IMG/VR virus record: IMGVR_UViG_3300033144_003929
Location: 1-24,392 of that record
DNA from: a virus
DNA length: 24,392 nucleotides
Direction: 5' to 3' (one strand)
The translations under genes and the position numbers were made by a program. Below, one piece after another: positions 25 to 21,890 of the stretch; the first letter of the stretch is position 1, and every line of letters starts with the position of its first letter. The notes under the pieces are model-generated. The model ran no database searches. It was not told the DNA's origin and saw nothing but the letters and a program-made list of their open reading frames with translations.

Positions 25-840
25 GTGATAATTGAAACTCCAGCACTCTGGCTTCCGTCTTACACCCAGGGCTTTGCTCGCTCTGCGGCCGAGGCTGCGA
101 ATCCGGGGTTGTGGACGGGATTGGTTGGATTGTGGGTACCGAGTCTTGGTCCTACTGGTCTGACGCTGTTCGATCAAAGTGGCTATCGCGATGACGGCAC
201 GCTGACGAACATGGAGCCGGCGACGGATTGGGCAATTAGCTCGATGGGATCTGTCTTGGAGTTGGATGGAGCGAATGAGTACGTGAGCGTGCCGAGTGCG
301 TTGTCTCAGTGGTCGGGACAGGTTCACACGGTCAGTGCGTGGGTCCGTTGCGATGCCTACGACGCGAACGGTTTTGTGTTTTTTGGTACGAACACCGGCG
401 ACAATGTATATTGGCAAGTACAAAACGATACCAGCGTTTGGATTGCTGCACAACCTTTGGTTGTACCTGAAACACATTTCGCTGATGGTAAATGGCACCT
501 CTTGTCGTGGGTATCGAAGGGTGCTTCTGGAATAGAGTTTTTTCGTGATGGTACTTTGTTGGCATCTAGTGGGGATGTATCAACGAGTGTCCCTTCTGGC
601 AGTAAAAACTTTGCGATTGGTGATTGGATTGGTAATTTGGCAGCAACCTGGACGCTGAATGGTGCAGTAGGTCCGCTCGCTGTGCATAACAGGATTCTAA
701 CAACCGATGAAATCCAACCCCTCTACCGCGACCCTCACGCCATCGTCCGGCCGATGCAGTATATACCATTAGTGCCATCAGGTGCTCCTGCAGGTATTGA
801 TGGAGACATTATACAAATTGTACCACAATGGGTAGCTTAG
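25..840 (+). CDS. LamG/concanavalin A-like lectin-fold phage protein
   Basis: A 271-residue protein with the pattern of LamG-type jelly-roll domains: an opening GLVGLWVPS strand, FDQSGYRDDGTLTN near residues 49-62, HTVSAWVR near 101, GKWHLLSWVSK near 155 and a closing strand followed by ILTTDEIQPLYRDP near 226. Such domains commonly bind glycans or serve as virion adhesins. It has no signal peptide. The GTG start at 25 is supported by a GAAGGA motif at 13-18. G+C is markedly higher in the first 350 bases (about 67% in 61-120) than later in the gene (about 45% in 361-420), suggesting a recombinant or recently acquired gene. An exposed capsid or tail-fibre role is inferred from neighbours; the ligand is unknown. 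Confidence 0.75.
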   Translation: MIIETPALWLPSYTQGFARSAAEAANPGLWTGLVGLWVPSLGPTGLTLFDQSGYRDDGTLTNMEPATDWAISSMGSVLELDGANEYVSVPSALSQWSGQVHTVSAWVRCDAYDANGFVFFGTNTGDNVYWQVQNDTSVWIAAQPLVVPETHFADGKWHLLSWVSKGASGIEFFRDGTLLASSGDVSTSVPSGSKNFAIGDWIGNLAATWTLNGAVGPLAVHNRILTTDEIQPLYRDPHAIVRPMQYIPLVPSGAPAGIDGDIIQIVPQWVA

Positions 841-8482: not shown

Positions 8483-8854
8483 ATGGCGGATTTCCTACAA
8501 AATGCTGCAGCCAGTCTCTCTCTGCTTATGCCTCGCAGAACTGTGGAGTATAAGCAGGGAGGGACTTCTTTGTCTATTCAAGTTACAGTAGGTAGATCAA
8601 CTGTAGAATGGACAGATGAGGATGGTTATAGAATGAAAGGGGAGCTACGCAATTACTTAATTGACCGTTCTGAGTTGGTAGTAGAAGATGAGGAGATTAA
8701 ACCTCAAGAAGGAGATACAATTTTCGACGACAACAATGGAGATGATACTACTTACATTGTAGTGGGCACTGCTGGTATGGCATGGAGGTGGGTAAGTCGG
8801 TATCATAAGCAATACCGAGTGTTTGTAGAAGAACGTAGTGAGATGGGAACATGA
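8483..8854 (+). CDS. Head-tail connector (stopper-type) protein
   Basis: A 123-residue protein with YLIDRSELVVEDEEIKPQEGDTI (residues about 53-75), a pattern typical of phage head-tail joining proteins in which a strand, a turn and a PxxGD element precede a C-terminal beta segment (TYIVVGTAGMAWRWVSRYHKQYRVFVEE). Such proteins close the portal channel and bind the tail after packaging, like lambda FII. Its stop overlaps the next start as ATGA. Synteny between the decoration and tail-terminator genes supports the call; the exact subfamily is uncertain. Confidence 0.65.
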   Translation: MADFLQNAAASLSLLMPRRTVEYKQGGTSLSIQVTVGRSTVEWTDEDGYRMKGELRNYLIDRSELVVEDEEIKPQEGDTIFDDNNGDDTTYIVVGTAGMAWRWVSRYHKQYRVFVEERSEMGT

Positions 8855-17362: not shown

Positions 17363-17569
17363 TCACTCGTTAGAATCTCTATCTAACGCATCTTTTACAT
17401 CGCTGCTAAGAAACGATGTATTAACAACTGAAACTTCTCTTACCCTCCACTTCACATACCGAGTACGTTTCTTTTCTTCAAGATGTTTTTTCTTAACCTC
17501 AGCACACCGCTGACGAATTTCCTCTTCAGTTGGATCAGGAACTCGCTGATAGCATTTACCCTTCGTCAC
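17363..17569 (-). CDS. Small charged protein (68 aa), leftward
   Basis: A 68-residue, highly charged, probably helical protein. RVPDPTEEEIRQRCAEVKKK (residues 9-28) resembles a short PTxEEIxxxCxxI motif that I recall from many small planctomycete and phage proteins of unknown function; this is only a weak hint about the host. It starts with GTG at 17569, preceded by GGAGG on the leftward strand inside the end of the upstream ORF, which suggests translational coupling. Its stop lies three bases from the convergent structural operon. Confidence 0.65.
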   Translation of the reverse strand: MTKGKCYQRVPDPTEEEIRQRCAEVKKKHLEEKKRTRYVKWRVREVSVVNTSFLSSDVKDALDRDSNE

Positions 17570-17735
17570 TAAATTCCTCCGATAAACGATTTAACATCAT
17601 AACTGCATTTAAGTTAATTTCAACAAGTAGTTCCTTAATCTGCTTCGGTAGAATCTTTGATCGCTTTGCCTTTTGTAGGACTTCGCCAGATAACTTCACC
17701 ACATTTCTCGCATTTGATAAAATCACCTTGTTCAT
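17556..17735 (-). CDS. Small helical protein (59 aa), leftward
   Basis: Reading leftward from ATG at 17735 gives 59 residues (MNKVILSNARNVVKLSGEVL, then basic KRSKILPKQIKELLVE and a final acidic SEEFSDEG). It is Leu/Lys-rich and probably helical. GAGGAG precedes the ATG by about ten bases. The 3' end overlaps the next leftward gene by 14 bases and carries that gene's GGAGG. The 5' 101 bases overlap another plausible ORF (17635-17793) in a different frame, so one of the two may be spurious. Confidence 0.5.
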   Translation of the reverse strand: MNKVILSNARNVVKLSGEVLQKAKRSKILPKQIKELLVEINLNAVMMLNRLSEEFSDEG

Positions 17736-17793
17736 GTAACTGAGTCTCCTCAGAAGGTTTATCTATCAGAGTAAACTTATCTGTTTTTTCCAC
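17635..17793 (-). CDS. Small CxxC protein (52 aa), first leftward ORF
   Basis: Reading leftward from GTG at 17793 gives 52 residues with a single CxxC pair (FIKCEKCGEVIWRSPTKG, Cys28 and Cys31), resembling half of a zinc ribbon. Its ribosome-binding site AAGGA (17800-17804) has ideal spacing and touches the U-run of the intrinsic terminator at 17805-17855. That placement makes it the first gene after the leader. It overlaps the 17556-17735 ORF by 101 bases in another frame. The start and protein-like composition favour it; no function is known. Confidence 0.5.
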   Translation of the reverse strand: MEKTDKFTLIDKPSEETQLHEQGDFIKCEKCGEVIWRSPTKGKAIKDSTEAD

Positions 17794-17804
17794 GATTAGT
17801 CCTT

Positions 17805-17855
17805 AAAAAACCGGCTGTATCGTAGAAAGTGTTAATAACTACAAATACAGCCGGC
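17805..17855 (-). terminator. Intrinsic terminator on the leftward strand
   Basis: A ten-pair perfect stem (plus-strand 17811-17820 with 17846-17855), extended by GUAG/CUAC, is followed on the leftward transcript by six U residues (17805-17810). On the plus strand no T-run follows, so it is directional. The U-run directly abuts the AAGGA site of the GTG start at 17793, an arrangement typical of attenuators. Confidence 0.75.
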
Positions 17856-17984
17856 TTGACGGGAACAACACCACAATTACTCTATGATTCGACTCCTCCG
17901 TGCTCAGTCCGCGACGATGACCCTCTCCCACAACCGATCCGGCAGACACCGAGACCGCCCAGGGATCGATGGGGTGGGGGGCAC
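17805..17984 (-). ncRNA. Structured leader RNA or small RNA, leftward (candidate)
   Basis: About 180 bases lie between a good leftward promoter and an intrinsic terminator, with no protein-coding pattern. The 17891-17980 stretch is about 68% G+C in an AT-rich genome. On the leftward transcript, GUGGG/CCCAC (17927-17931 with 17974-17978), an eight-pair helix (17933-17940 with 17963-17970) and a hairpin with a five-base loop (17941-17947 with 17953-17959, one U-U mismatch) nest into one long arm. It could be a stand-alone small RNA or the aptamer part of an attenuated leader for the leftward genes. It matches no RNA family that I recognise. Confidence 0.5.
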
Positions 17985-17989
17985 AATAC

Positions 17990-18018
17990 ATTATACACCC
18001 TTCAATAGAGAAAGTCCA
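17990..18018 (-). promoter_or_regulatory. Leftward sigma70-like promoter
   Basis: On the leftward strand, TGGACT (18013-18018) and TATAAT (17990-17995) are separated by 17 bases. The -10 is a perfect match and the -35 matches TTGACA at four of six positions. Transcription should start near 17984 and enter the GC-rich structured region. Confidence 0.65.
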
Positions 18019-18027
18019 GATACTATC

Positions 18028-18066
18028 TTGAAAAATCTTGCCCCTTTTTGAGAAAATCTCTTCCCC
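18028..18066. repeat. Imperfect direct repeat between divergent promoters (possible operator)
   Basis: TTGAAAAATCTTGCCCC at 18028-18044 and TTGAGAAAATCTCTTCCCC at 18048-18066 share a TTGAnAAAATCT...CCCC pattern with a 20-base period, about two helical turns. They lie between the leftward -35 and the rightward -10, a natural place for repressor or activator binding. No matching regulator is identified. Confidence 0.35.
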
Positions 18067-18088
18067 TGTGGATTACTGTGAGTATAAT
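18060..18088 (+). promoter_or_regulatory. Rightward promoter for the early region (candidate)
   Basis: TATAAT at 18083-18088 is a perfect -10 box. At the usual distance upstream only a poor -35 (CTTCCC at 18060) is present, so an activator may be needed. It lies about 50 bases before the first rightward gene. Confidence 0.4.
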
Positions 18089-18137
18089 ACACTACCGCCC
18101 CGCTCTATTTCATCGATGAGTTGAGAAGGATTCTTAG

Positions 18138-20930: not shown

Positions 20931-21076
20931 GGAGTGATGGCGAAATTGATAAACGCATTACAGAGATTTAGTTGGCTACTAGACTACTGTATTAAACCTC
21001 AAAGTAAGAAGGTGTTTAGTATGCGTTTGCTAAAAGTGCATATAAAAACATGTAGGTTTGACTCCTGCTCACTCCA
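20931..21076 (+). tRNA. Oversized tRNA-Leu-like RNA 1 (146 bases)
   Basis: The ends form a perfect seven-pair acceptor stem (GGAGUGA with UCACUCC at 21069-21075) with A73. The D arm GCG...CGC is of class II Leu type but its GG pair is GA, and the T arm is GUAGG-UUUGACU-CCUGC (21052-21068). Between D and T arms are about 95 bases, against roughly 35-40 in a normal class II tRNA. They fold into an extended arm (TACAG 20959-20963 with CTGTA 20987-20991, a 3x3 internal loop, then TTTAG/CTAGA closing a seven-base loop UUGGCUA) and two more hairpins (20992-20997 with 21014-21019, and 21020-21024 with 21038-21042). No standard anticodon is certain. It could be a tRNA with an insert, a degenerate tRNA or a tRNA-like RNA. 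Confidence 0.55.
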
Positions 21077-21176: not shown

Positions 21177-21311
21177 GGTCCCGTGGCGGAAATGGTAGAC
21201 GTACAAGCCCGTTAACCAGCACGGCGGTTCAGAACTGGTGAAAGTAAACAGACGTCCTCTACGATTAGCCTATGTAACTGAACAATGCAGGTTCGAGTCC
21301 TGCCGGGACCA
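21177..21311 (+). tRNA. Oversized tRNA-Leu-like RNA 2 (135 bases)
   Basis: A perfect seven-pair acceptor stem (GGUCCCG with CGGGACC), discriminator A, a canonical class II D arm (UGGCGGAAAUGGUAGACGU with intact GG) and a canonical T arm (GCAGG-UUCGAGU-CCUGC, 21287-21303) are all present. Between them lie about 85 bases. A six-pair helix GTTCAG (21227-21232) with CTGAAC (21278-21283) ends three bases before the T arm, like a giant variable arm enclosing 45 bases. CCGU/ACGG (21208-21211 with 21220-21223) closes an eight-base loop where the anticodon arm should be, without a U33-type anticodon. UAA occurs in this region but not in a normal stem-loop. The conserved ends argue for function. Confidence 0.6.
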
Positions 21312-21447: not shown

Positions 21448-21463
21448 ACTTTAACTGACGAGG

Positions 21464-21513
21464 CTCTCGGTAGTAGTAAAAGGATTATGACACTGCTGCT
21501 ACCGAGAGTTTTT
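21464..21513 (+). terminator. Intrinsic terminator after the tRNA-like cluster
   Basis: CTCTCGGTAGTAG (21464-21476) pairs with CTGCTACCGAGAG (21496-21508) over 13 pairs with one G-U, and five T residues follow (21509-21513). It closes the transcript that carries the three structured RNAs and separates them from the next gene, which has its own start 60 bases later. Confidence 0.85.
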
Positions 21514-21572: not shown

Positions 21573-21890
21573 ATGGATATTCACAGTGCTCTTGAATCTT
21601 TGCGTAAGTTCAATTATGGATCAGATGAGCTACTTAACGCTATAGAGTTTATCATAGACATTTATGGTATCGACCACTATGATAAACTACTAGAAATGAT
21701 TGTAGTAATAGAAAATGATAAACGACCATTGTTAAGTCAAATGATCAGCTATATTACAATTCATGGTAGCATGACAAATCAGGAACTTTCATTAGCTTTT
21801 AATAGAACACCACGATGTATTTCATTACTTTTGGGAAGTTGTAATGAAATAAAACGAGTAGGTAGAAAATGGAGACTCAAAAGTGGCTAG
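21573..21890 (+). CDS. Winged-helix-like DNA-binding protein (105 aa)
   Basis: A 105-residue protein. The N-terminal half is helical (MDIHSALESLRKFNYGSDEL, FIIDIYGIDHYDKLLEMIVV). The C-terminal 45 residues, from LSQMISYITIHGSMTNQELS through NRTPRCISLLLGSCNEIKRV to GRKWRL, have the helix-turn-helix and wing pattern of a winged-helix domain. It could regulate the downstream genes or act at a replication origin. It begins 60 bases after the terminator, and AGGA lies about 13 bases upstream of the ATG. The stop overlaps the nuclease start by 8 bases. Confidence 0.55.
   Translation: MDIHSALESLRKFNYGSDELLNAIEFIIDIYGIDHYDKLLEMIVVIENDKRPLLSQMISYITIHGSMTNQELSLAFNRTPRCISLLLGSCNEIKRVGRKWRLKSG

Follow-up and report, generated by a model that had tools for sequence, protein, structure and literature searches.

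Organization of the putative divergent control region

The sequence analysed here, IMGVR_UViG_3300033144_003929, is that of an uncultured phage and is 24,392 nt long; "the window" denotes all 24,392 nt. It contains an intergenic gap of 344 bases (positions 17794–18137) that holds two copies of TATAAT, one on the minus strand at 17990 and one on the plus strand at 18083 (18083–18088). These point outwards in opposite ways, an arrangement like that of divergent promoters. The space between them includes an imperfect direct repeat (18032–18051 and 18053–18072, 70% over 20 nt, with a spacing of 21) that could be an operator and is possibly a product of chance. In the explanation preferred below, this divergent control region separates the late genes from the next rightward block. 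The features of the gap and of its leftward side are as follows.

18030–18088, no strand: space between the divergent promoters, with the imperfect direct repeat inside
17990–18018, minus strand: sigma-70-type promoter-like site TGGACT-17-TATAAT, 10/12 matches, spacer 17
17805–17984, minus strand: predicted short RNA of about 180 nt, placed from the promoter and terminator positions
17898–17984, minus strand: G+C-rich part, 69%, the highest G+C peak in the window
17917–17984, minus strand: 5′ hairpin domain, predicted from the single sequence and stable once about 64 nt of RNA have been made
17805–17857, minus strand: intrinsic terminator, stem 17845–17854/17811–17820 plus inner pairs, 13-nt loop, U6
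17800–17804, minus strand: AAGGA directly beside the U-run, the ribosome-binding site for the first leftward ORF
17635–17793, minus strand: leftward ORF of 52 aa with a CxxC motif, codon score +0.16 per codon
17556–17735, minus strand: leftward ORF of 59 aa with GAGGAG in front, codon score +0.12
17363–17569, minus strand: leftward ORF of 68 aa with a DPTEEEIRQRC motif, codon score +0.09

The promoter and the terminator

The initial annotation of this region had described, in this order, a promoter TGGACT-17-TATAAT, a stretch of 68% G+C, a ten-pair intrinsic terminator whose U-run touches the AAGGA of a GTG start at 17793, and the ribosome-binding site itself, and all of these parts are present in that order. 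On the minus strand, TGGACT occupies 18018–18013 and TATAAT 17995–17990, with 17 bases between them, and the site is recovered at 18018–17990 with 10 of 12 matches in a promoter scan. Transcription would start at 17984–17982 (about 17983), and the RNA would end with the U-run at 17805. The terminator arms, CCGGCTGTAT (17854–17845) and ATACAGCCGG (17820–17811), form 10 uninterrupted pairs with more pairs inside, and are followed by a U-run of six T (17810–17805); the predicted energy is −24.6 kcal/mol. The AAGGA at 17804–17800 is followed by six bases and then by the GTG at 17793. Termination on the plus strand at the same hairpin (17805–17857) was also considered and rejected, there being no T-run on that side.

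By itself, the promoter match is unremarkable. A scan of 3 kb yields 13 sites with at least 9 of 12 matches, compared with 7.2 (sd 2.7) in shuffles, and two sites reach 10 of 12, the leader promoter among them; likewise, TATAAT is as common in the window as expected (21 observed, 23.1 expected). The scan finds no second site of such quality between the terminator and the first leftward gene. The terminator is the stronger evidence, as one of two hairpin-plus-T-run sites of −20 kcal/mol or below in the window; shuffled sequences give on average 0.33 terminator-like sites of −15 kcal/mol or below per window. The two signals were also scored jointly, on both strands of the whole window, as a promoter with at least 10 of 12 matches followed at 100–260 nt by a terminator of −15 kcal/mol or below. 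The window contains a single case of this layout and 60 dinucleotide shuffles of the whole window contain two in all, and the promoter-leader-terminator unit is therefore probably real.

Coding potential of the leader and of the leftward genes

Open reading frames of 50–59 aa run across the leader on both strands, and their codon scores (−0.41, −0.17 and −0.14 per codon) are those of non-coding sequence. The leader ORF of 50 aa begins inside the −10 box, scores as non-coding, lacks a ribosome-binding site, and has no relative in the genome contigs or phages searched. A role of the leader as protein, on either strand, was rejected on the negative codon scores together with the absence of relatives. 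Among the starts in the leader, none is preceded by a convincing Shine-Dalgarno site, and a leader-peptide mechanism is therefore unlikely on sequence grounds.

The three leftward ORFs behind the terminator, by contrast, look coding, with codon scores (listed above) that exceed the 90th percentile for ORFs of their size in the window. A family search with the 52-aa ORF gave nothing convincing. The 52-aa and 59-aa ORFs (17635–17793 and 17556–17735, minus strand) share about 100 bases, which they read in different frames, and each has a ribosome-binding site and a positive codon score.

Composition and folding of the leader

The G+C content is 69% over 17898–17984 against 41% for the window, the first gene of which contains the next highest peaks. 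That gene (25–840, plus strand) reaches peaks of 62–68%, and its G+C content, far above that of the window, suggests that it was recently acquired. It is accepted practice to look for new structured bacterial RNAs in long intergenic regions rich in G+C, and the leader is for that reason a fair lead (PMC8723152; PMC11109978).

The leader had initially been called highly foldable, and this description does not hold: the 123 nt upstream of the terminator have a folding z of +0.22, and 113 of 200 dinucleotide shuffles fold as well or better. Folding beyond that of dinucleotide shuffles outside the terminator, by which a structured RNA would be recognised, is thus absent. The whole 185 nt have a z of −2.25 because the terminator hairpin is included. 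Since the leader folds no better than its shuffles, "highly foldable" here means merely G+C-rich. The remark that the base composition is unlike that of the flanks is borne out; the suggestion that the stretch was imported is not, as no source appears in phages, plasmids, viral contigs or genome contigs.

Relatives of the phage and of the 68-aa protein

The exact leader and terminator patterns are absent from the viral contigs searched, and distant BLASTN comparison with 50,697 phages and 72,556 plasmids returns only matches of 19–33 bases with E values of 2–7. None of the collections searched contains a leader homologue from which covariation could be assessed. The phage itself has relatives, with protein identities of about 31–56%, at 24 loci identified by the portal and 10 by the capsid, and many of its relatives are of 60–68% G+C; searches with the ATPase gene and with the last late gene found none. 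The leader has no counterpart among the portal and capsid relatives, and the genes from 14448 to about 21890 are virtually without counterparts there, the exceptions being gene 14448 (one weak match) and the nuclease at 21883 (one match). The leader-bearing end of the late region is not shared by the structural relatives.

The 68-aa protein has relatives in L059–L064 that share DPTEEEIRQRC or a close form of it; a family scan of the genome contigs returned no relative. The motif is found both in the 68-aa ORF and in the C-terminal parts of longer proteins of other phage contigs (L060, 1264–1566; L064, 4836–5222). The homologues in L060 and L064 lie in different gene settings. In L060, an ORF that looks like the AAA ATPase gene of the window is situated no more than about 600 bases from one relative. 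No comparable leader is evident in front of the relatives of the 68-aa protein.

Other features of the window

Several further features were noted. Two neighbouring tRNA-like genes lie on the plus strand at 20931–21076 and 21177–21311, with scores of 34.6 and 34.0 bits against RF00005 (gathering score 29). Each carries about 60 extra bases inside, and the two resemble each other in places, the insertion included. The second has a Leu-type D arm, and ARAGORN, with introns allowed, reads it as tRNA-Leu(TAG), the anticodon loop of which is interrupted by an insertion of 56 bases. Introns this short would be unexpected in tRNA genes of a bacterial phage, and giant variable arms are the alternative. 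The two genes may interest the specialist more than the leader does. A strong terminator-like hairpin follows them at 21461–21511 on the plus strand (18 pairs, 13-base loop, −26 kcal/mol), with a loop equal in length to that of the leader terminator (17805–17857). Finally, a near-perfect hairpin of 19 pairs, followed by 5 around a 4-base loop, is located at 8512–8566 (plus strand) inside the coding frame 8483–8854, and the 201-nt segment containing it is the strongest fold in the window (folding z −6.24).

Possible roles of the leader

The initial annotation had proposed a transcription attenuator or riboswitch, in which the leader senses a molecule, a protein or a ribosome and toggles between terminator and antiterminator for the small leftward genes. 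The order of the parts agrees with this, including an intrinsic terminator between the promoter and the first gene, and in a single-sequence test with the 3′ arm of the terminator withheld, as before it is made, possible upstream pairing of the 5′ arm brings a gain of 6.4 kcal/mol. This gain is, however, at the level of chance, being equalled or bettered by 82 of 300 shuffled leaders in what is a test of one sequence, so that no mutually exclusive antiterminator beyond chance is seen. The annotation had also recognised no known RNA family, and a search of Rfam 15 agrees: no family, be it a riboswitch aptamer, a T-box or a leader, is matched at its gathering score, and even an E value of 10 brings up no plausible candidate. 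The sole match of low E value, K10_TLS, was dismissed as chance (21.4 bits, where the gathering score is 43), with the terminator stem read on the plus strand. Nor does the leader have a peptide ORF with a ribosome-binding site, such as ribosome-mediated attenuation would use, or any folding excess. The layout is that of an attenuator and the sequence tests do not support a switch; we consider a conditional attenuator distinctly unlikely. An element of processive antitermination, like HK022 put or lambda nut, whose RNA would make polymerase ignore the terminator, would agree with the position directly after a promoter and ahead of a terminator. But the leader has no boxA-like element on the minus strand within 17805–17984 at up to one mismatch and no sequence relative; we give this reading very little credence.

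The other alternative raised initially, a stand-alone phage small RNA of about 180 bases, is no worse a fit than the attenuator. The terminated RNA would act in trans, with the downstream genes incidental or separately regulated, and it has what such an RNA should have as far as sequence signals go: its own promoter and terminator, a suitable size and no coding capacity. On the other hand, a comparison of the leader RNA with the gene starts of the window reveals no target beyond chance (37 of 50 shuffled RNAs equal the best duplex), and the contact between terminator and ribosome-binding site suggests a tie to the genes behind them; we hold this reading to be unlikely, if somewhat less so than the attenuator. 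The G+C-rich stretch could also be foreign DNA beside ordinary signals, with no role as RNA, for example a remnant of a host or another phage, or an attachment or packaging site. The composition unlike the flanks and the lack of folding excess are in keeping with this, and G+C-rich donors are plausible given the many phage relatives of that composition. Its limits nevertheless coincide with the promoter and the terminator, and a source is missing from the phages, plasmids, viral contigs and genomes searched; this seems to us more doubtful again than the attenuator. Finally, a new class of phage RNA, G+C-rich and of about 120 nt, that decides whether polymerase gets past the terminator into the genes for a set of small phage proteins, for example through binding to polymerase or to a host factor, is improbable, ranking just ahead of the antitermination element. 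The probabilities that we attach to the various readings overlap in part.

We favour, with about even confidence, a plain leader and terminator unit: a short leftward transcription unit whose RNA, some 180 nt long, would end at the terminator, with three small genes reached by leaky read-through. The layout and terminator counts argue for it, as do the coincidence of the G+C peak with exactly the interval between promoter and terminator, the contrast between non-coding leader ORFs on both strands and coding leftward ORFs, the lack of relatives of the 50-aa leader ORF in genome contigs or phages, the location in a G+C-rich intergenic stretch (PMC8723152; PMC11109978), and the lack of another promoter of similar quality between the terminator and the first gene. 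It is weakened by the excess of promoter-like sites in the scan, by the lack of folding excess in the G+C-rich part, and by the L060 and L064 homologues of the 68-aa protein, which occur in other settings with no evident leader. The leader is an ordinary-looking promoter-leader-terminator unit, and its sole unusual trait is its base composition.

From these signals we infer that the promoter fires, that the terminator works, and that there is read-through, possibly under control. Initiating at about 17983 within the divergent control region and moving leftward, RNA polymerase would synthesise about 180 nt of G+C-rich non-coding RNA and in most cases would stop at 17805, where the intrinsic terminator ends. 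Polymerases that continue, on their own or let through by a phage or host factor, would go on to make an mRNA for the 52-, 59- and 68-aa proteins, the first ribosome-binding site of which lies directly behind the U-run. The level of expression of the small genes would in this way be set, and perhaps switched, by the terminator, and the RNA released there may itself be functional. Provided that this RNA is made and controlled, it would count as a regulatory RNA ahead of small genes, in a phage group for which the searches found no cultured member.

Comparison with known systems

The organization of the leader invites comparison with several well-known systems. As in the ribosome-mediated attenuators of trp and his, a terminator lies ahead of an operon, although the leader lacks a peptide ORF having a ribosome-binding site. 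Riboswitch and T-box attenuators share with it the order of promoter, leader, terminator and ribosome-binding site, and differ in that the leader here has neither an Rfam match nor an antiterminator beyond chance. Lambda oop and phi29 pRNA are short phage transcripts with their own promoters, and oop also has its own terminator. The transcript predicted here is similarly a short phage RNA with its own promoter and, like oop, its own terminator; unlike these RNAs, it has no sequence or Rfam match, and its best antisense target in the window is no better than chance.

The late leader of lambda, pR′-6S RNA-tR′, has a promoter of constitutive type, an untranslated RNA of just under 200 nt and an intrinsic terminator, followed by genes that need read-through. 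In the present phage the genes behind the terminator are three tiny ORFs rather than late genes, no Q-like gene is identified, and the likeness is one of layout, with no homology shown. The arrangement is like that of lambda, whose PR′ and tR′ intrinsic terminator are treated elsewhere (PMC4604602), in having a promoter, a short untranslated RNA, an intrinsic terminator and genes behind it.
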